64,000 nucleotides of DNA from Tessaracoccus antarcticus (GTDB lineage: Bacteria > Actinomycetota > Actinomycetes > Propionibacteriales > Propionibacteriaceae), in NCBI RefSeq assembly GCF_003688855.1, contig NZ_REFW01000002.1, forward strand, positions 558,001 through 622,000. The letters are read 5' to 3'. This document shows, in pieces, positions 15,877 to 39,845 of this stretch (positions within the stretch are counted from its first letter, which is position 1; every line of letters begins with the position of its first letter). The notes beneath the pieces are model-generated. The model was given only the letters and a program-made list of their open reading frames with translations, searched no databases and was not told the DNA's origin. Both the position numbers and the translations under genes were made by a program.

Positions 15877-18090
15877 CTACTTCGGCTCCTGACCGTCCTT
15901 TGCCGGGTCCGGCTGGCCCGTCGTCTCTAATGCGGTAGCCGGCTTGATCGCCTGCTGGGGTGGCAGCACGCCGTTGTTCTCGGATGCGAGGGGGGCCCAT
16001 CGTCGGGCGAAGTCCAGAAAGACCACCTCCTGGGTGAGGCGGTACAGCTGCAGCAACTCCACCACGTGGCTCTCGTGGTACCCGTAGTGCAGGTTGCGGC
16101 CCGTGAATCGCTCCGGGATGACGGCGCCCGACGATGATCCCGGCGTCAGTCTCACCTCTGCCACGTCCTGCCACCGGCCGTCGGCGTGCGCCTGGAGGGT
16201 CGCGGAGCCCGCCCCCGTGAGGGACAACGTGTTGACGGGGGTGCGATCCACCAACATGTCGTAGGCGGGCGTGACGCTCTCGCCGATGACCTCCGCACGG
16301 CTGAGGCGGACGTCGTCGAATTCGACCACCGTGTTGGCCGGCCCCTTGTTGCCCGAGGTGAGCCGGATTTCGAGTGAGCACCCGGCGCGGGGTGCTGGGA
16401 ACCCCACGTTGTAGGAGGCCCAGGATGTGCTTCGCAGCTTGGAGGTGGTGTGGAGCACCCGGTACTTCCCGGAGCACCGTTCGTAGGCCATGATCTTCCC
16501 CGAGGTTCCCGGAGCGCCGGTGGGAAGTGTGAGGCGGCTCCGCACCGCCAGCGTCAGGGGCTCCTCAGGTGTGAAGGTGCCGGCCTGGACGCTCTGGACG
16601 GCGCCCTGCCACGCGGCGCCATCTGTCACCAGTCGCAGGGCGCCCCCGGATGCGCTGATGGCGGAGCGGGCGTTCAGTGGTGACCAGTTCGCCGGGACCC
16701 CGTTGGTCACCTGTGACATGTCGGAGTTGCGCAGCACGTTGGGTGGAGGTGGGGCGGCGGCCGCGACGGTGGGAATACTCTGGAATGTGGTGTTCAGCCG
16801 GGATGTGCCCCACCAGAAGTCCCCTGAGGTGGCAAGGAGTCGCAGGGGTGCGGCGGGATACCCCCGCACCAGGTCGTAGCTGGACAGGAGGCCGGCCTCC
16901 ACCTGCACCTCGCTGGCCTCCAGGAGCGGCCGCAACTCGGGGACCGTCTCGGTCACCATGGCTGTGGCGCGGGGTTCGTTCATGGTCTTGCCCCAGTAGG
17001 ACAGGGCGATGAGCGCCTCGAAGTTGCCGTTGAGGACGGTGGTGCCGGGCGTCGTGGGGTACTCCTCGAACCACAGGAACCCCTTCTCACGGGACATGAA
17101 CCCGCCCGCGGAGGTTGGAACCATGAAACTCTCAAACGTTTCCCTGCCGTACCGTGCCCAGACGGGGTCGCCCGTGACGTCCTCCAGGAGGACCGTCAGC
17201 GTGAGGATGTTGGCCTGCGCGAGGCCGGAATGCCAGGGCGCTCGCAGCGTCGGGACCGATGGGTTGGCGGAGTAGTCGAAGTCAAAGGGGAACCAGCGCG
17301 ACGTGACACCGTCCACCACCCGGGTGGTGCTGTGCGCCACGAGATGGCCGGCAGCCGTGGCCGCGAGACACTTCTTCTGGGACGCGGTGCTGCGAGTGTC
17401 CTTCAACACCTGCCGGATGAAGTTGCCGATGTATTGGGGGTTGAAGGCTCCTGCAGGCTGCTGTCCGGTTTGTGGCGATGAAGGCATGCCGTTGTCCAGG
17501 ACGTCGAATCCTGATGGGATCGGCGCCCCCACGCAGGCCTTGGTGGGGGCAACAGGGATGACGGGGGCCGGTGACCCGGACGCTGGGGTGAAACGCACCA
17601 TGTTGTTGAAGACCCACATGGTCTTCCAGCCGTAGCGGGTCGGGTTGGTGGACGCCACGTCCACTACGCTGGCCCGAATCCAGCTCCGGCAGCCGTTGCG
17701 GCCCGTGACGGCGGTGTCGCACTCCGTCCTCCATGCGCGCCCGTCCAGGGTGTGTTCGCCGGGGGTGGCCAGCGGGTTGCCCGCCCACGGTCCACGAGGG
17801 CTCGCCCGGTACGTCAGGTTGTTGAAGGTCCAGCCGGTGGTGCTGACGAACGAGTTGCCCCTGGCAGCGACGGTGGTGGCGATGATCTCAGTGCGGCACC
17901 GCGTCACCGTGCTGCTGTACGCAGAGCATGCCGTGCGCCACGTACGGCCGTTGACGTGGTGGGTGCCGGGGGTGATGTAGACGTCCAGCGCTGCGGCGGG
18001 AGGGGTTGGGGACAGCCAGGTACAGACGAGGACCACTCCCATCACCAGGGCCATGGCCCGTGAGACGCAGCGCATCACACCTTGTCGCAT
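15877..18090 (-). CDS. Secreted D-glucuronyl C5-epimerase-like protein with N-terminal four-cysteine module
   Basis: About 737 residues from ATG 18088-18090 (AAGGG 6 nt upstream; an upstream GTG is less well spaced). The signal peptide ends near residue 34 (PPAAA-LDVY). Residues 36-168 are the two-fold repeated module with Cys55, 65, 124 and 134. Residues about 215-440 resemble the D-glucuronyl C5-epimerase C-terminal fold: RWFPFDFDYS, PWHSGLAQANILTLTVLLEDVTGD and GFLWFEEYPTTPGTTVLNGNFEALIALSYW. A jelly-roll-like carbohydrate-binding segment (about 450-600) interrupts it before NLHYGYHESHVVELLQLYRLTQEVVFLDFARRW, which looks like the end of the same fold. A role in processing uronic-acid polysaccharide outside the cell is inferred; it could instead be a lyase-like (alpha/alpha)6 enzyme. 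Confidence 0.72.
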   Translation of the reverse strand: MRQGVMRCVSRAMALVMGVVLVCTWLSPTPPAAALDVYITPGTHHVNGRTWRTACSAYSSTVTRCRTEIIATTVAARGNSFVSTTGWTFNNLTYRASPRGPWAGNPLATPGEHTLDGRAWRTECDTAVTGRNGCRSWIRASVVDVASTNPTRYGWKTMWVFNNMVRFTPASGSPAPVIPVAPTKACVGAPIPSGFDVLDNGMPSSPQTGQQPAGAFNPQYIGNFIRQVLKDTRSTASQKKCLAATAAGHLVAHSTTRVVDGVTSRWFPFDFDYSANPSVPTLRAPWHSGLAQANILTLTVLLEDVTGDPVWARYGRETFESFMVPTSAGGFMSREKGFLWFEEYPTTPGTTVLNGNFEALIALSYWGKTMNEPRATAMVTETVPELRPLLEASEVQVEAGLLSSYDLVRGYPAAPLRLLATSGDFWWGTSRLNTTFQSIPTVAAAAPPPPNVLRNSDMSQVTNGVPANWSPLNARSAISASGGALRLVTDGAAWQGAVQSVQAGTFTPEEPLTLAVRSRLTLPTGAPGTSGKIMAYERCSGKYRVLHTTSKLRSTSWASYNVGFPAPRAGCSLEIRLTSGNKGPANTVVEFDDVRLSRAEVIGESVTPAYDMLVDRTPVNTLSLTGAGSATLQAHADGRWQDVAEVRLTPGSSSGAVIPERFTGRNLHYGYHESHVVELLQLYRLTQEVVFLDFARRWAPLASENNGVLPPQQAIKPATALETTGQPDPAKDGQEPK
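17587..17985 (-). other. Four-cysteine two-repeat secreted module, copy 1 (in the C5-epimerase-like protein)
   Basis: Encodes the module directly after the signal peptide. Half A: TPGTHHVNGRTWRTAC, RCRTEI, GWTFNNLTY. Half B: GEHTLDGRAWRTECDTA, GCRSWI, WVFNNMVRF. Both halves have a C-x9-C pair. Confidence 0.8.
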
Positions 18091-18168
18091 CCTGTTCCCT
18101 TCCACCCCACATGTTCTCCCCGCACCCTTTCACGGATGGCGCATGCTCGGAAGGGGTCGGGGCGTGTT

Positions 18169-31514: not shown

Positions 31515-34500
31515 ATGAGACAGAATCCCAAGCGCTTTCTGGCCGTCGGATTGGCGGGCAGCTTGTCCGTGGGTCTCATGGCGTTGCTGCCAGCAACTCC
31601 GGCGCTCGCCGCCGAAACAGATCTGGCGCAACTCGGGGTCGTGAGCGCATCTGCCACGCAATCGGATCAGGACGGGACATTTCCGGCGTCCAACGTCAAT
31701 GACGGCAATCCTGAGACGCGTTGGGCCAGCGGCAACGGCCCTGACGACGGTGCGGCCGTCTTCACAGCTGACCTGACGGTTGATCTCGGCTCGGTCGCCA
31801 CCATCACCTCGGTGGCAATGGCGTGGGAGGCTTCCTACGCCGAGGCCTACGACATCCAGGTGGCCAGCGCGTCACCTGATCAGCCCGCCAGTTGGGAGAC
31901 GGTACACACCACCACCGCCGGCGACGGGGGCGCCGACGCCGTCACGCTTGAGAGCGTTGACGCTCGCTACGTCCGCCTCGACATGAAGAAGCGGGCGGCG
32001 GCCCTGTGGGACGCGCCCACTCTTCACTACTACGGGTATTCCCTCTACACCCTCGCCGTCAACGGCGACTTCGCGACACCGATGGTCAGCCTCGGTCCCG
32101 ATGAGGTCGTCGCCGCCGGCGATGCGGTCTCCATTCCAGTGCGCCTTTCGGGAGCCTCCGACACGGAGCAGAGCGTCCGGGTGAACACCGAGGGTGGCAC
32201 TGCCGTGGCCGGCAGCGACTACACCGCCTATGACCAGACCCTGATCTTCGCAGCCGGGGAGGTGGAGAAGGTGGTGGACATTGACACCGTCAGCCAGGGA
32301 TTCCTGGCCCCGCAGCGCGATTTCACGGTGCGCGTCAGCGACCCCACCGCCGGCGTCCAACTTGGGATCCGCACCACCGCCAGCATCACCATCAGACCCA
32401 CGGGCGACGGTTCCGGAACGGGACCCTCCGAGGTGCTGCATGACTTCCAGTCCGGCGTCCCAACCGACTTCACCGTGTGGGGCAGCAACCCGAGCGTCAC
32501 ACCCGTGCTGGGCAGTACCGCCGACGACACAGTCCCCGGCTCGGCAGCGGACAACCAGGTGCTCGTCGCCACGGTGGGGGGCTCTCCGAGCGGTGGGGAC
32601 TGGTTCGGTTTCACCCATGACACGCCGGCAACTGACTGGTCGGGCTACGACGGCTTCCAGTTCTGGTTCGAGGGCTCTGGCAGCGGCAAGATGCTCAGCT
32701 TCGAGGTGAAGAGCGATGGTCAACTCTTCGATCACAGCATCGTCGACGATGCAGCGGGGTGGCGCCGGGTATCGGTGCTGTTCAGCGACTTGCGCGTGAA
32801 GGGGAATCCCGGTTCCGACGAACGATTCAACTCGCGCGCCTCCACGGGCTTCGCGGTGACCCTCACCGGTCTGGGCGCAGGGTCCTTCCGGATGGACGAC
32901 TTCGCGCTGTTCCAGCGGCTCGTGGTGCTGGATGACTTCGAGAACGACATCACCGTGGGCTCCGGCGCCGATCCGATCGGCTACTTCACGTGGTCCAACG
33001 CCGAGAATGCAGTGACGTTGGGCCGCGAGGTGCAGGAACGCGACGGCAACGCCGACAACCACGTGTTGGCGGGAACCCACCTCATCCCTTCCGGCTCCTA
33101 CGGCGGCATGAGCTACAACTTGGCCAACCCCCAGGACTGGAGCAGCTTCCACGGCATCCGGTTCCTGTGGTACGCCTCACAGACGAACAACCCCGCGTCC
33201 CCCACGGCGGGCGCGGACATCAAGGTGGAGATCAAGGACGGCGGTACTGATGCCGAGCACTCCGAGCTGTGGCAGGCCACCTTCAAGGACCGTTGGGGAA
33301 GCTCCACCAGCCGGTGGAAGCTCGTCGAACTACCTTTCTCGTCGTTCACCCCGGGCGGCTACCAGCCCGGATCCAGCGAGACACAGAACGGCACTCTGGA
33401 CCTCGACAACGCCTGGGGTTATGCCATCACGTTTGATCCGGGCACCGCTGAGGCGATGCGTTGGGCCATTGACGATGCCGGCCTCTACGGCACTCCAACG
33501 GTGGCCAGTTCCGTCACCGTGGCAGCCCCCGGCGTCACACTGGTGGACGGCGGAAGCACGGCGTCCGTGCCGCTCACGCTGACAACCACTGATGGTGAGC
33601 CCACCGGCGAGCCCGTCGACGTCACATGGAACACAAGCCCCGGAACCGCACTCGAGGGCACGGACTACACAGCAGCGTCGGGCTCGATGACGTTCCCCGC
33701 CGGAACACCCTCGGGTACGGCCCAACCCGTTGAGGTGCAGACGCTCGCGCGAACGGGCGCCAGCGAGGCCCTCACCATCCCCCTCGAGATCACGGCCGAC
33801 GGGGCGGTCACTGCAGATGGCGTGCCGCGTGTCGTCATCAACGCGCACGACCTTGCCTACCTCGACTCCTCCCTGCCCACCAAGGACCGGGTGGCGGACC
33901 TGCTGGGGCGCATGAGCCTGCAGGAGAAGGCGGGCCAGATGGCACAGGCCGAGCGCCTCGGGCTGAGTTCGGTGGAACAGATCTCTGACCTTGCGCTGGG
34001 CTCTCTCCTGTCCGGCGGCGGGTCCGTCCCGAATCCCAACACCCCCGAGGCCTGGGCGGCCATGATCGACGGGTACCAGCGCCAGGCGTTGTCGACGCGT
34101 TGGCAGATTCCGATGGTCTATGGTGCGGACGCCGTCCACGGGCACAGCAACGTCCTTGGCGCCACGATCTTCCCGCACAACATTGGCCTGGGGGCCACTC
34201 GCGACCTCCAGCTCATCCGGAACATCGGGCGGGCCACAGCCTCCGAGACACGCACCACAGGCGTGACGTGGACATTCGCGCCCGCCCTCACTGTGGGTCG
34301 GGACGAACGCTGGGGTCGAACCTACGAGTCGTTCAGCGAGGACCCGAAGCTTGTCGCGGCCTTCGCGGTACCTGCCACCGAGGGGCTGCAGGGTGATGAC
34401 CCCACGGACATCACTGCGGCTGACGAGGTGCTGGGCTCGGCCAAGCATTGGGCCGGGGACGGGGGCACTACCTACGACGCCTCACAGCTGGGCAAGGGAT

Positions 34501-36515
34501 ACCCGATCGATCAGGGTGTCACCCATGTGTCGTCGATGGCGGAGTTCATGCGCCTCCACGCTGATCCGTACATCCCCGCCGTGGATGCAGGGATTGGCAC
34601 CATCATGCCGTCGTATTCCGGCGTCTCCGTCAACAACGGACCGGTGCTGCGGATGAGCGAACACGCGGAGCTGAACAACGGTGTCCTCAAGGGCGACATG
34701 GGCTTCACCGGTTTCCTCATCAGCGACTGGGAGGCGATCGACAAGCTGCCGGGCGGCACCTACCAGGAGAAGGTGGTGCGATCGGTCAATGCCGGGATGG
34801 ACATGGTGATGGCCCCCTACAACTTCGCCACATTCATCGATGCCGTGGTGGCGGGAGTCGAGTCCGATGCCATTGCGCAGGCACGTGTTGATGACGCCGT
34901 GACGCGGATACTGACCGAAAAGATGCACCTCGGCCTGTTCGAGCAGCCGTTCACCGTCGACAGCCAACGCGACATGTTCGGCGGTTCCGAGCACCGCATG
35001 ATTGCGCGGGAGGCGGCCGCACAGTCGCAGGTTCTGCTGCGCAACGACGGCGCACTGCCGTTGGCACACACGGGTCGGTTGTACGTGGCCGGCTCCAACG
35101 CCGACGACCTCGGCAACCAGATGGGTGGCTGGTCCATCTCCTGGCAGGGCGGCTCTGGTGACACCACCACGGGCACCTCCATCCTCGAAGGTCTTCGCGA
35201 GGTGGCTCCGGATCTGGAGATCACCCACTCGCGGACGGCCAGCGAACCCACGCAGGACTACGACGCGGGTCTTGTCATCGTGGGGGAGACCCCCTACGCG
35301 GAGGGACAGGGCGACGTCGGCAACAACGGCAAGTCGTTGTCGTTGTCCGCCACGGACCAGAAGGCCATCGAGACGGTCTGCGGGGCAATGGAATGCACCG
35401 TGGTGGTCGTCTCCGGTCGGCCGCAGGTCCTCACTGGGGCCGCTGCGGGGGCCAACGCAGTCGTGGCCTCCTTCCTCCCCGGTAGCGAGGGTGCAGGCGT
35501 GGCGGATGTGTTGATGGGTGAGCGTCCTTTCACTGGTCAGCTGTCGTTGACCTGGCCCAAGGCTGCCGATCAGGTGCCGATCAACGTCGGCGACGACGTG
35601 TACGAGCCTGCCTATGCCTACGGGTGGGGTCTGCGCACCGATCAGCCGAAGGAACGGTTGTCCGAACTCGTCGCCGGGCTGCAGGGCGATGCGCGGATGA
35701 AGGCTCAGAGCCTGGTGGATGCTGGTGTGTGGGCTGCCGACGGCAGTATCTCGGACCCCGCTGCTGCCTGGCCACTGCTGAAGTCCCTCGCCGACACACT
35801 GTCGGGCACGGGCGAGGACACCCTGATGCAGGCAGCAGCAGTGGTCTCGTTGGCCCGTGATGTGGCGCAGGACGCAGTGGTGGCTGCAACCGCAGACGCC
35901 GATGCCCAGCGTTCCATCGCCGACGCTGAGCACCTGGTCTGGTCCGGAGATCCTGCGGGCGCCGTTGAACTCCTCGGACAGGCAGCCAATGTCGACGAGA
36001 CCCTGCCGCCGGCCTCTCCGTCGCCTTCTCCCTCGGCCTCGGTGTCCCCGTCCCCGTCTCCGTCGGCGTCGCCCTCCCCGTCACCGTCGGTGTCGTCGGG
36101 GCCGGTGTTGCGGGCGCCGTACGAGGTGCCCGGATTCCATCAGATCAACGGTCGTTGGTGGTTCACCCAGTGTGAGCCGTACTCACAGACGACGCGTTGT
36201 CGGACGGAGATCTGGTCCTCGACGGTTCGGTATGTGGCTGGGGCCTATGTGGTCGACACGGGATGGCACTTCAACAACCTGACCTACCTGCCCTACATGA
36301 CTCGTCAGAAGTGGGGGAGCAATCCCCTGGCAAATACGGGGGAGTGGACCAGCGGCGGTCGTCGCTGGCGTACCGAGTGCGATACGGCTGCGACGGGTCG
36401 TGGGGGGTGTCGTTCCTACATCTGGATGAGTGTGGTGGTCCCTGATGGTGGGGGTGGCCACCGTATGAAGGATCAGTTCGTCGTGAACAACATCGTGCGG
36501 TTCAGGAAGGGTTGA
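31515..36515 (+). CDS. Secreted multi-domain GH3 beta-glucosidase with C-terminal four-cysteine module
   Basis: A 1666-residue exported enzyme; GAAAGGGG is 8 nt before the ATG. Order, with rough residues: signal peptide 1-33 (ALA-AET); discoidin-like F5/8C domain 36-185; Calx-beta-like domain 190-295; two CBM11-like carbohydrate-binding domains about 305-470 and 470-660; a second Calx-beta-like domain 665-775; GH3 N-domain about 783-1130 with K977-H978 (KHWAGDGG) and nucleophile Asp1071 (LISDWEAI); GH3 C-domain to about 1375; a helical segment to about 1495; a Ser/Pro linker; the shared module 1536-1666. NagZ's KH-PG-H signature is absent, so a beta-glucosidase-like activity on beta-glucan or similar is likelier than beta-N-acetylglucosaminidase. 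The domains suggest action on polymer outside the cell. Confidence 0.9.
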   Translation: MRQNPKRFLAVGLAGSLSVGLMALLPATPALAAETDLAQLGVVSASATQSDQDGTFPASNVNDGNPETRWASGNGPDDGAAVFTADLTVDLGSVATITSVAMAWEASYAEAYDIQVASASPDQPASWETVHTTTAGDGGADAVTLESVDARYVRLDMKKRAAALWDAPTLHYYGYSLYTLAVNGDFATPMVSLGPDEVVAAGDAVSIPVRLSGASDTEQSVRVNTEGGTAVAGSDYTAYDQTLIFAAGEVEKVVDIDTVSQGFLAPQRDFTVRVSDPTAGVQLGIRTTASITIRPTGDGSGTGPSEVLHDFQSGVPTDFTVWGSNPSVTPVLGSTADDTVPGSAADNQVLVATVGGSPSGGDWFGFTHDTPATDWSGYDGFQFWFEGSGSGKMLSFEVKSDGQLFDHSIVDDAAGWRRVSVLFSDLRVKGNPGSDERFNSRASTGFAVTLTGLGAGSFRMDDFALFQRLVVLDDFENDITVGSGADPIGYFTWSNAENAVTLGREVQERDGNADNHVLAGTHLIPSGSYGGMSYNLANPQDWSSFHGIRFLWYASQTNNPASPTAGADIKVEIKDGGTDAEHSELWQATFKDRWGSSTSRWKLVELPFSSFTPGGYQPGSSETQNGTLDLDNAWGYAITFDPGTAEAMRWAIDDAGLYGTPTVASSVTVAAPGVTLVDGGSTASVPLTLTTTDGEPTGEPVDVTWNTSPGTALEGTDYTAASGSMTFPAGTPSGTAQPVEVQTLARTGASEALTIPLEITADGAVTADGVPRVVINAHDLAYLDSSLPTKDRVADLLGRMSLQEKAGQMAQAERLGLSSVEQISDLALGSLLSGGGSVPNPNTPEAWAAMIDGYQRQALSTRWQIPMVYGADAVHGHSNVLGATIFPHNIGLGATRDLQLIRNIGRATASETRTTGVTWTFAPALTVGRDERWGRTYESFSEDPKLVAAFAVPATEGLQGDDPTDITAADEVLGSAKHWAGDGGTTYDASQLGKGYPIDQGVTHVSSMAEFMRLHADPYIPAVDAGIGTIMPSYSGVSVNNGPVLRMSEHAELNNGVLKGDMGFTGFLISDWEAIDKLPGGTYQEKVVRSVNAGMDMVMAPYNFATFIDAVVAGVESDAIAQARVDDAVTRILTEKMHLGLFEQPFTVDSQRDMFGGSEHRMIAREAAAQSQVLLRNDGALPLAHTGRLYVAGSNADDLGNQMGGWSISWQGGSGDTTTGTSILEGLREVAPDLEITHSRTASEPTQDYDAGLVIVGETPYAEGQGDVGNNGKSLSLSATDQKAIETVCGAMECTVVVVSGRPQVLTGAAAGANAVVASFLPGSEGAGVADVLMGERPFTGQLSLTWPKAADQVPINVGDDVYEPAYAYGWGLRTDQPKERLSELVAGLQGDARMKAQSLVDAGVWAADGSISDPAAAWPLLKSLADTLSGTGEDTLMQAAAVVSLARDVAQDAVVAATADADAQRSIADAEHLVWSGDPAGAVELLGQAANVDETLPPASPSPSPSASVSPSPSPSASPSPSPSVSSGPVLRAPYEVPGFHQINGRWWFTQCEPYSQTTRCRTEIWSSTVRYVAGAYVVDTGWHFNNLTYLPYMTRQKWGSNPLANTGEWTSGGRRWRTECDTAATGRGGCRSYIWMSVVVPDGGGGHRMKDQFVVNNIVRFRKG
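36012..36099 (+). repeat. Low-complexity Ser/Pro linker repeat in the GH3 gene
   Basis: Irregular repeats of a tcc-ccg-type hexamer encode alternating Ser-Pro with some Ala and Val. It separates the helical segment from the C-terminal module and probably acts as a flexible wall-spanning linker. Confidence 0.8.
36120..36512 (+). other. Four-cysteine two-repeat secreted module, copy 2 (C-terminus of GH3)
   Basis: Half A: VPGFHQINGRWWFTQCEPYS, RCRTEIW, GWHFNNLTY. Half B: GRRWRTECDTAATG, GCRSYIW, FVVNNIVRF. Cys spacing is C-x8-C and C-x9-C. Confidence 0.8.
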
Positions 36516-36696: not shown

Positions 36697-38520
36697 ATGT
36701 CTGCAGCGCAGCACACAACTGACCAATCCCGACGCACAGTGCCACGGCGGCGATCGCGCGTCGGAGGCCGTCCTCGAATCGTGGTGGCCTGCGGCGCCGC
36801 AGCATCCCTGATCATCTCGCTGGGGCTCTCGGTCTCCGCCGCTCAGGCCGATACCGCCCCGGCGGACCCGCTTGACGCCAACTCCGAGGCAGCGTTCCCG
36901 CCGCGGGCCAACGGCGTGTGGATGTACGACAGGGATCGGGCCGGCGCCTTCGACCCGGGCCGCTGGATCAACCTCATCAACAAGTACAACGCCGCCGCCA
37001 CACCCGGCAACGAACTCGGCCAGGTCTTCAGCTACGGCAGCGACATGGAGACCTACTGCGAGGACGACGACGCCGACAAGTGCACTCTCGACGACCTGAA
37101 CATGTATTACACGCCCGACAGCGTCGGGTATGAGTCCACCGGCGCTTACGTCGACGGCCTCGATCCGATCGACAACGACCCATCGGGCGCTGCGGCCAGG
37201 CCCGTCGTGATGACGCCGGTCATCGATGGGCGCATCGGGCCGGAAGGGTACCTGCGGAACTTCAACGATCTCAGCGAGAGTCTCGCCCGCGACTACGCGG
37301 ACAAGGCGTCCAAGGAACTCTGCGCGGATGGGCGCATCGACGGTATCCAGTTCGACCTGGAGCCCTTCGACGTCACCACACCCAACGGCCAGTACTACTT
37401 CTACCTGCAGATCGCCAAGAACTTCGCCGGTGATCACGACGGTGACCCGGGCAACGACCCGTACGGTTGCGTCGACGCTGCCCACCCCCAGGGCAGGTTC
37501 TTCTCATTCTTCACGTTCGCAGCCGCTATTGAGCCCGGAACGGTGAGCGCCAGCAACGTCCACGACGTGGTCACGTCCTACGGCAACGGCCTCATCATCG
37601 CCTCCCTGTATGACCTCAACAACCTCCCCGCAGGGACGCTCAATGACCTCCCCACCTACACCGGCAGTGTTCAGCAGGAAGTCGCCAACATGAAGGCGTG
37701 GGCGCAGGAACTGGAAATTCCCTACGCATTCGGGATTCCCGCCTCCGCGTCCGCGCACGAGTACACAACATGTGACGGTCCCGATTGCAGGCCCGGCAAG
37801 AACGGCGCGACCGGATATCCGATGCTCGACTACACCAAGGCCGCCGTGACCGCACTGCATGACAGTGCCGTCGACTCCGATCCGTTGTTCCGGGGCACGT
37901 CGATCTGGGACTTCGGGGAAGGCATCAACGTGGACGGCAACGCCTTCCAACCGGCGCCGGCCCCCGCGGAGGTTCTGCTGTACCTCACCCACAACCTGAC
38001 CAGGCCTGACGCAGAGCAGCCCGGTTCGCCGGAGCCCACCCCGGCTCCGACGGTCACCGTCACGGCACAGCCCTCGCCTGCACCGGCCCCGACCGTCACG
38101 GCCACGCCGGCGCCGCCCACGGGTGACCTCTACGAGACGCCCGGTTTCCACTACGTCAACGGTCGCAAATGGATGACAACTTGTGAGCCCTACTCGGTGA
38201 CGATCCGTTGTTGGACCTACATCTGGGGCACCCAGGTGCAGTACACGGGCGGCCAGTTCGTGAAGGTCAACGGCTGGCTGTTCAACAACCTGACCTATGT
38301 GGCAGCGCCGCGCAGCGTCTGGAAGGACAATAAACTGGCCTACGACAACAGCTGGACCGCCGCGGACGGTCGCAGGTGGCGCACACAGTGTGAGACCGCT
38401 CTGACCGGCCGCAACGGCTGCCGCAGCTGGGCGGAGGCCACGGTGATCGAGCCCACCGGCTCCGGCTACGCTCTGGTCAAAAAGTTCGTGTTCAACAACA
38501 TCGTGCGCTTCAGCAACTGA
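36697..38520 (+). CDS. Secreted GH18-like glycoside hydrolase with C-terminal four-cysteine module
   Basis: A 607-residue exported protein. A long signal peptide (arginine-rich to about residue 27, hydrophobic to about 50, ending AQA-DT) follows AGGGAG-cacc before the ATG. The catalytic part (55-430) resembles a GH18-type TIM barrel: GRIDGIQFDLEP (Asp215, Asp220, Glu222) fits the DGxDxDxE active-site pattern with one Asp replaced by Gln218. RFFSFFTFAAAI, GLIIASLYDLNN and GTSIWDFGEGIN are further barrel strands. A Pro/Thr/Ala-rich linker (about 447-475) leads to the shared module. Likely target is a GlcNAc-containing or related glycan; the family call is moderate and activity untested. Confidence 0.65.
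   Translation: MSAAQHTTDQSRRTVPRRRSRVGGRPRIVVACGAAASLIISLGLSVSAAQADTAPADPLDANSEAAFPPRANGVWMYDRDRAGAFDPGRWINLINKYNAAATPGNELGQVFSYGSDMETYCEDDDADKCTLDDLNMYYTPDSVGYESTGAYVDGLDPIDNDPSGAAARPVVMTPVIDGRIGPEGYLRNFNDLSESLARDYADKASKELCADGRIDGIQFDLEPFDVTTPNGQYYFYLQIAKNFAGDHDGDPGNDPYGCVDAAHPQGRFFSFFTFAAAIEPGTVSASNVHDVVTSYGNGLIIASLYDLNNLPAGTLNDLPTYTGSVQQEVANMKAWAQELEIPYAFGIPASASAHEYTTCDGPDCRPGKNGATGYPMLDYTKAAVTALHDSAVDSDPLFRGTSIWDFGEGINVDGNAFQPAPAPAEVLLYLTHNLTRPDAEQPGSPEPTPAPTVTVTAQPSPAPAPTVTATPAPPTGDLYETPGFHYVNGRKWMTTCEPYSVTIRCWTYIWGTQVQYTGGQFVKVNGWLFNNLTYVAAPRSVWKDNKLAYDNSWTAADGRRWRTQCETALTGRNGCRSWAEATVIEPTGSGYALVKKFVFNNIVRFSN
38131..38517 (+). other. Four-cysteine two-repeat secreted module, copy 3 (C-terminus of GH18-like protein)
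   Basis: Half A: TPGFHYVNGRKWMTTCEPYS, RCWTYIW, GWLFNNLTY. Half B: GRRWRTQCETALTGRNGCRS, FVFNNIVRF. Cys spacing is C-x8-C and C-x9-C. Confidence 0.8.
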
Positions 38521-38902: not shown

Positions 38903-39691
38903 TCAGCCCTTGAAGCAGTACTTGATGGGCTCTGCCAGGTCGAGTGGTGCGCCGGACTGGCGGTAGAGCTCGGCGCAGACGCTCGTGAGGTTCTCGTTGC
39001 TCTTGAACTCCAGCCCCCAACCGGTGGGGCGCTGGAAGAAGAACGCGGTCTCTCTGTAGAGCTTGCCGGACGGGTTCGACACCACGTAGTCAGCCGCCAG
39101 CCACTTGGAGTTCGACTTCGACACCGTGCAGGCAGATGTCACGATCGACGGCTGGCCGGTCAGGGTGCGGATCTGCGACTGCGGCACGGGGCACTTGATG
39201 GGCGTGACGTGGACGATGTTGTTGAACACCCACTTGTTGACCATCTCGTAGCGCCCGTTGCGGTATTCGGGGACGGTGGCCCAGATCTGCGAACGGCAGC
39301 CGTTGGAACCCGTCCACGCAGTGTCGCACTCGGTCTTCCACCTACGGCCGTTGAGGGTGTGTTCGCCGGGGGTGACGAGCGCATTGAAAGGTGCCCAGGC
39401 GGCTCTCGGGCTGGTCTTGTAGGTGAGGTTGTTGAACGTCCACTGCGTCTTCGCAGTGAACGTGCCGTTCTTGTACGTCACCGTCTTGTGCCAGATCTGG
39501 GTGGTGCACCGGTCGACGACGCTGGAGTACTTCTCGCAGCTTGTCAGCCAGTCGCGGCCGTTCTGGTGGTGCTTGCCCGGTGTCGTGTACACATCCAGGG
39601 CTGAAGATGTCTGCACGCCTGCCGCGAGCAGGCTGAGGCTGGCGGCAAGGACGGCCAGGAGTCGGATGAAATGACGTGTGTGGGGGCGCAC
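38903..39691 (-). CDS. Small secreted protein: four-cysteine module plus unknown C-terminal domain
   Basis: About 262 residues from GTG 39689-39691, with GGAGA 8 nt upstream; an ATG at 39704-39706 would add five residues. A signal peptide (HFIRLLAVLAASLSLLAAG, ending near SSA-LDVY) leads to the shared module at residues 33-164 (Cys52, 62, 122, 132). The last 98 residues hold four more cysteines and aromatic-rich text (LYRETAFFFQRPTGWGLEFKSNENLTSVCAELYR-like). I do not recognise this C-terminal part, and no enzyme motif is seen. It could be a small envelope-binding protein built on the module. Confidence 0.75.
   Translation of the reverse strand: MRPHTRHFIRLLAVLAASLSLLAAGVQTSSALDVYTTPGKHHQNGRDWLTSCEKYSSVVDRCTTQIWHKTVTYKNGTFTAKTQWTFNNLTYKTSPRAAWAPFNALVTPGEHTLNGRRWKTECDTAWTGSNGCRSQIWATVPEYRNGRYEMVNKWVFNNIVHVTPIKCPVPQSQIRTLTGQPSIVTSACTVSKSNSKWLAADYVVSNPSGKLYRETAFFFQRPTGWGLEFKSNENLTSVCAELYRQSGAPLDLAEPIKYCFKG
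39200..39595 (-). other. Four-cysteine two-repeat secreted module, copy 4 (small secreted protein)
   Basis: Half A: TPGKHHQNGRDWLTSCEKYS, RCTTQIW, QWTFNNLTY. Half B: GEHTLNGRRWKTECDTA, GCRSQIWATV, WVFNNIVHV. Like copy 1, it starts right after the signal peptide with LDVY. Confidence 0.8.
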
Positions 39692-39845
39692 GTTGTATGT
39701 CTCCATGTATAGGGGATGTGGGTCCAGACTGCCGCGGGACGTCGATCTGGCCACGGGCAACGCCGTCACTGTAGGACGGCGGAGACCCGTCTGCCGCACC
39801 GACCCGCCGTAGCGGCCAACCTCGTCGGGTCGGTGGCGCGCCGGA

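Follow-up and report, generated by a model that had tools for sequence, protein, structure and literature searches.

What would a secreted enzyme of the glucuronyl C5-epimerase type do on the surface of a Gram-positive bacterium? A GLCE-type enzyme converts glucuronic acid to iduronic acid in human heparan sulfate. The question is raised by a gene of Tessaracoccus antarcticus in the window, which is the whole stretch of 64,000 nucleotides analysed here (contig NZ_REFW01000002.1, positions 558,001 to 622,000). Its minus-strand reading frame is open throughout and comprises 742 amino acids counted from a GTG codon. Residues are numbered from this GTG; the ATG at 18090 is the likelier start. An earlier note, made from the sequence alone, had read the product as a secreted C5-epimerase whose core is interrupted by a carbohydrate-binding jelly roll and resumes behind it, and had taken this to imply a uronic-acid polymer at the cell surface. 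The protein indeed starts with a signal peptide, and its features are listed in Table 1.

Table 1. Features of the split epimerase gene, its neighbor, and the other module-bearing genes in the window
Feature	Position	Strand	Basis
Whole reading frame, secreted split C5-epimerase	15877..18105	-	Reading frame and profile match
Signal peptide, residues 6-39; hydrophobic run, AAA before LDVY	17989..18090	-	Sequence
Display module, residues 40-176; two repeats of ~65 residues, each with one conserved Cys pair	17578..17988	-	
C5-epim_C core, first part, residues 189-440	16786..17541	-	
Catalytic E348-Y349 (GLCE E499-Y500), in WFEEYPTTP	17059..17064	-	
Catalytic N359 (GLCE N510)	17029..17031	-	
Catalytic Y410 (GLCE Y560), in SSYDLVRG	16876..16878	-	Motif and order
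Inserted CBM-like jelly roll, residues ~451-605	16291..16755	-	
Remainder of insert, residues ~606-665, beta-rich piece	16111..16290	-	
Core resumes, residues 671-705; LHYGYHESH and last helices	15991..16095	-	
Catalytic Y676 (GLCE Y578)	16078..16080	-	
Neighboring gene, 311 residues, hydrophobic segment	18169..19104	-	
Module at C-terminus of GH3/CBM11/F5-8C protein (31515-36515)	36117..36506	+	
Module at C-terminus of secreted protein (36697-38520)	38125..38517	+	
Module behind signal peptide of protein (38903-39706)	39203..39595	-	

The Pfam family C5-epim_C (PF06662) matches residues ~272-412 over profile positions 7-143 of 188 (E 3.4e-21), and the score of 76 bits lies well above the curated cut-off of 23.3. 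With the single protein as the query, phmmer matched the GLCE sequences in the PDB at 2e-5 in an alignment that includes the terminal stretch (YHESH against RWDYHTTH), and a profile of the genus matched them at 8e-17. PMC13308652, citing Debarnot 2019, lists E499, Y500, N510, Y560, and Y578 (human numbering) as the catalytic residues of GLCE. Counterparts of all five were found: E348, Y349, N359, and Y676 were assigned from alignments and numbering, and the equivalence of Y410 with Y560 rests on the YDL motif and the residue order rather than on a structural alignment. Thirteen intact enzymes of the genus, most of them only 38-48% identical to the window copy in the core, have all five unchanged. 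The catalytic tyrosines, whose conservation the earlier note had proposed to check, are kept (Y349, Y410, and Y676), no catalytic residue is missing, and the match is to a PF06662-type epimerase instead of a different (alpha/alpha)6 enzyme. A homolog from an uncultured Arachnia (L040:9893-12166) has WFELYR in place of WFEEYP and has lost the equivalent of E499; it is a possible natural inactive variant.

The sequence match to GLCE is confined to the catalytic part, and the display module occupies the N-terminus of the window protein, where GLCE has its beta-hairpin and beta-sandwich domains. Helices were predicted at the places expected for an (alpha/alpha) domain. The full-length model, built with four usable sequences in the alignment, is weak except for the jelly roll (pLDDT 60, pTM 0.37), and GLCE was not among the structure matches listed for it, since the jelly roll filled the list. 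The window protein belongs to the C5-epimerase family and is unusual in having another domain inserted into it. It shares the family, the catalytic residues, and the terminal YHxxH helix with GLCE/Hsepi (PF06662; PDB 6HZZ and 4PW2) and with the Bermanella RED65 enzyme. Unlike them, it is a secreted actinobacterial protein with an insert of ~250 residues between the Y560 and Y578 equivalents and a display module at its N-terminus.

Y410 and Y676 are 266 residues apart, compared with 18 between Y560 and Y578 in human GLCE; the separation results from a CBM-like jelly roll lying between the two. The gap measures 255-349 residues in 14 intact members of the genus and about a dozen in relatives without the split, which belong to a different family of this order. 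For all intact epimerases of the genus, the PF06662 match ends at ~143 of the profile; in relatives from other genera, it mostly reaches 182-187. The split architecture is not due to chance. The insert (residues 451-605, or 412-566 of the model) has a beta-sandwich jelly-roll fold. VIA aligned it with structures of CBM16, CBM70, CBM22, and CBM4 at Z 14-16; the figures were 16.0 for CBM16 (2zew) and 15.6 for the hyaluronan-binding CBM70 (4d0q), with rmsd values of 2.4-2.7 over 136-145 residues. An alginate CBM also matched (8zqf, Z 14.2), and jelly-roll matches were obtained with Foldseek as well. Although the insert shares the fold of these modules, it is 9-20% identical to them and sits inside another domain, and no named CBM sequence family exceeded its Pfam cut-off (HpiC1-like, 19.2 bits, below 27). 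Both the jelly-roll insert and the resumption of the core behind it, where YHESH and Y676 lie within residues 671-705, were therefore read correctly from the sequence.

The earlier note was right about the enzyme family, the insert, and the link to a polysaccharide; however, it overlooked what is more unusual about the protein, the module at its N-terminus, as well as a second epimerase copy that lies outside the window. Residues 40-176 are internally duplicated: hhalign aligned the two halves as homologs (99.1%, E 6e-19), a Cys pair and a W.FNN strand recur in both, and the predicted model (pLDDT 95) is an eight-stranded beta structure. For 58 module sequences, no relevant family was obtained from Pfam or NCBIfam, the T9SS CTD, SLH, and other named surface-anchor profiles included, and the module likewise had no sequence match in the PDB. 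Structure comparison of the model stayed above 0.001 with Foldseek and gave Z values of at most 3.4 with VIA-align. On this predicted structure, no structural relative of the module can be named, from which a novel fold would not follow. Literature searches turned up neither a description of the module nor an account of the wall polymer of this genus.

The window genome contains 64 module matches. Among 63 module-bearing reading frames, including a few fragments or broken genes, 40 end in the module with 0-3 residues before the stop codon (..VFNNIVRF), 22 carry it near the N-terminus, usually directly behind a signal peptide, and a start resembling a signal peptide is present in 50. The partner domains include GH101, GH123, GH20, GH35, GH26, GH2, beta-N-acetylglucosaminidase (NAGidase), subtilases (S8), and F5/8-type domains. 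In the window, the plus-strand protein at 31515-36515 is a secreted GH3 enzyme of 1666 residues with F5/8C, Calx-beta, and CBM11 domains and the module last, and the one at 36697-38520 (plus strand) had no Pfam match. The module is basic (average charge +4.5), which fits an anionic ligand. The C-termini of the 40 proteins that end in the module do not show the traits of sortase substrates (an LPXTG-like motif, a hydrophobic stretch, and a basic tail). Replacement of sortase by the module system was ruled out, because all 39 genomes of the genus encode sortases, with modules or not. The placement of the module, the signal peptides, and the co-occurrence described below suggest that it serves as an anchor binding a wall polymer.

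A scan of the genome collection located the close relatives in Tessaracoccus, Arachnia, and unnamed Propionibacteriaceae. The module occurs in 15 of the 39 genomes of the genus (Tessaracoccus/Arachnia), and none was found in the rest of the 198 family genomes or elsewhere in a phylum sample of 396 genomes. PF06662 was detected in 13 of the 39, all of which carry 11-64 module proteins. A large glycosyltransferase encoded in the polysaccharide locus has a full-length ortholog (at least 62% identity) in exactly these 13 genomes, counting G008, whose copy is in pieces; neither it nor the split epimerase was found in the other 26 (Fisher 1e-10). The epimerase of G008 (L021 / L037) is likewise split over several frames, and sequencing errors are the likely cause because aceE and the glycosyltransferase are also in pieces there. 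Only one of the 26 epimerase-free genomes has more than one module. In this exception, G015, 17 modules were counted in a 400-contig assembly, with modules at contig ends, and the epimerase and glycosyltransferase were not found; therefore, modules may work without them. Another exception is G019, with a single module protein (C62:22994-23404) and neither of the two enzymes. PF06662 proteins also occur in other genera of the family, where modules are absent; four of these five matches extend unsplit to 184-185.

On a tree of aceE from 36 genomes, the pair of epimerase and glycosyltransferase requires six changes, of which well-supported branches force at least five; the many-module state requires five, with at least four forced. 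Five changes coincide, with a rough probability of 5e-7 if they fell on branches at random, and would correspond to about five joint gains or losses of the epimerase, the glycosyltransferase, and the modules. The tree neighbors G020/G028 and G022/(G019, G030) differ in all three traits, with one module retained in G019. Vertical inheritance within a single clade was ruled out as the cause of the co-occurrence on this tree, which represents one gene and has some weak branches; aceE adjoins the type A epimerase copies.

The epimerase copies are found in two main settings. Type A lies beside housekeeping genes (phosphofructokinase, DUF3052, and aceE); the window copy is of this type and is not in the polysaccharide locus. 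The neighboring 311-residue protein had no Pfam match, and L032, L035, and L038 likewise have its gene adjacent to the type A epimerase locus. Type B includes a second copy of the window genome, which is 38% identical and located outside the window (C1:~152.9-155.3 kb). The type B locus encodes several glycosyltransferases, two UDP-sugar dehydrogenases, a Gfo/Idh oxidoreductase, a DegT aminotransferase, a hexapeptide acetyltransferase, a UDP-GlcNAc 2-epimerase-type protein, and an ABC exporter. Seven epimerase copies are inside the polysaccharide locus. In G022, four of the 11 modules, the epimerase's own among them, are encoded on one ~37-kb stretch that holds this locus. An argininosuccinate-synthase-like gene stands beside the large glycosyltransferase in type B loci (L025:3492-4925, L027:1-941, L034:4240-5670, and L036:16150-17832).

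In family composition, the type B enzymes correspond to the WbpA/B/E/D/I route that leads to 2,3-diacetamido-mannuronic acid (PMC4031482). The wall polysaccharide of C. acnes, a member of the same family, contains this sugar (PMC6598116), and Streptomyces teichuronic acids composed of it are lectin receptors (PMC13274773). The pathway genes of these actinomycete ManNAc3NAcA polymers are likewise present in the epimerase locus. The locus thus points to 2,3-diacetamido-uronic acids and/or GlcA as the probable substrates, rather than to heparosan specifically. The surface uronic-acid polymer postulated in the earlier note agrees with the presence of epimerase relatives in a surface-polysaccharide locus with UDP-sugar dehydrogenases. 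A sugar pathway specific to the module genomes was ruled out, because the WbpE-like DegT aminotransferase is present in most of the genus, including most module-free genomes. The base sugar therefore looks general, and it is the glycosyltransferase, the split epimerase, and the modules that go together.

We propose, with about even confidence, that a uronate polymer of the wall is remodeled by the epimerase and that the module tethers secreted proteins to the same polymer. The secreted enzyme would act at the polymer level, where the inserted jelly roll and the N-terminal module would bind the uronate-containing glycan of the cell wall. GLCE-type chemistry, with an active site reassembled across the insert and comprising E348/Y349, N359, Y410, and Y676, would invert C5 of uronic-acid residues, presumably 2,3-diacetamido-uronic acid or GlcA. 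Together with the one dedicated glycosyltransferase, the epimerase would produce the wall polymer in the form recognized by the module, and ~60 secreted module proteins would thereby be held at the cell surface without sortase. A stricter form of this proposal, to which we give somewhat less than even confidence, is that the module sees the wall polymer only after the module-bearing split epimerase has acted, so that an iduronate- or guluronate-type mark would be the docking address of the secretome. The position of the window copy outside the polysaccharide locus, the DegT aminotransferase in most module-free genomes, the modules of G015, and the lost Glu of the L040 homolog speak against the proposal. 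The epimerase is itself also a client of the module; therefore, its loss together with the modules may reflect loss of the whole set rather than dependence on the ligand.

This last point leads to the nearest alternative, a plausible though less probable one. The epimerase may be one more surface-displayed client that remodels a capsule or wall polymer for other reasons, with the module binding peptidoglycan, another glycan, or a protein, and the co-occurrence would then be that of an accessory surface package gained or lost as a unit. The epimerase carries the module as other clients do, several further clients of G022 are also common to the window genome, and the modules of G015 occur without the epimerase. 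However, the dedicated glycosyltransferase shared by the same 13 genomes does not itself carry the module, and linkage between the loci is missing in several genomes (type A copies), so that their joint loss is not one deletion. It is unlikely that the epimerase acts on foreign glycosaminoglycans or alginate-like polymers of a host or plant as an accessory to module-bearing glycosidases. Many module partners are glycan-foraging enzymes (GH101, GH123, GH20, and NAGidase) and the insert resembles CBM70, but seven relatives, including the second copy of the window genome, are in a biosynthetic polysaccharide locus, and a forager has no obvious gain from an epimerase. An enzymatically dead, lectin-like relative that only binds polymer is very improbable: the 250-residue insert could separate the two catalytic tyrosines and the L040 homolog lacks the catalytic Glu, but the five residues are invariant in the 13 diverged enzymes.

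The proposed tethering to an epimerized wall polymer can be compared with two known systems of anchoring. SLH domains bind a secondary wall polymer pyruvylated by CsaB. The likeness is that dozens of secreted proteins bear a repeated surface module and that, in our proposal, a dedicated enzyme modifies the wall polymer; in contrast, the present module is unrelated to SLH, and the modification would be C5 epimerization instead of pyruvylation. In Porphyromonas, ~30 secreted type IX proteins with a shared terminal CTD are bound to A-LPS made with Wbp-pathway genes (PMC4031482). A terminal domain common to many secreted proteins and Wbp-type polysaccharide genes are found here as well, but the host is Gram-positive and the module has no match to the CTD family. 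The module is also found at the N-terminus, unlike the T9SS CTD, and therefore need not be cleaved. The proposed system would belong to neither the SLH/CsaB nor the T9SS/A-LPS type of anchoring, because no family of these kinds matched the module and sortase tails are lacking in the proteins that end in it.

The presence of an undescribed module in ~60 other secreted proteins points to a novel means by which proteins may be attached to the cell's own sugar coat. If the proposal is correct, the few protein-display systems known in Gram-positive bacteria would be joined by a distinct one whose enzyme chemistry is known best from heparan sulfate of animals, and the module would offer a tag of ~135 residues for surface-display tests in laboratory strains. 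To our knowledge, no C5-epimerized form of the ManNAc3NAcA polymers has been described; C5-inverted uronates would be predicted in actinobacterial walls, and the unnamed domain on ~60 proteins of the window genome would gain a function.
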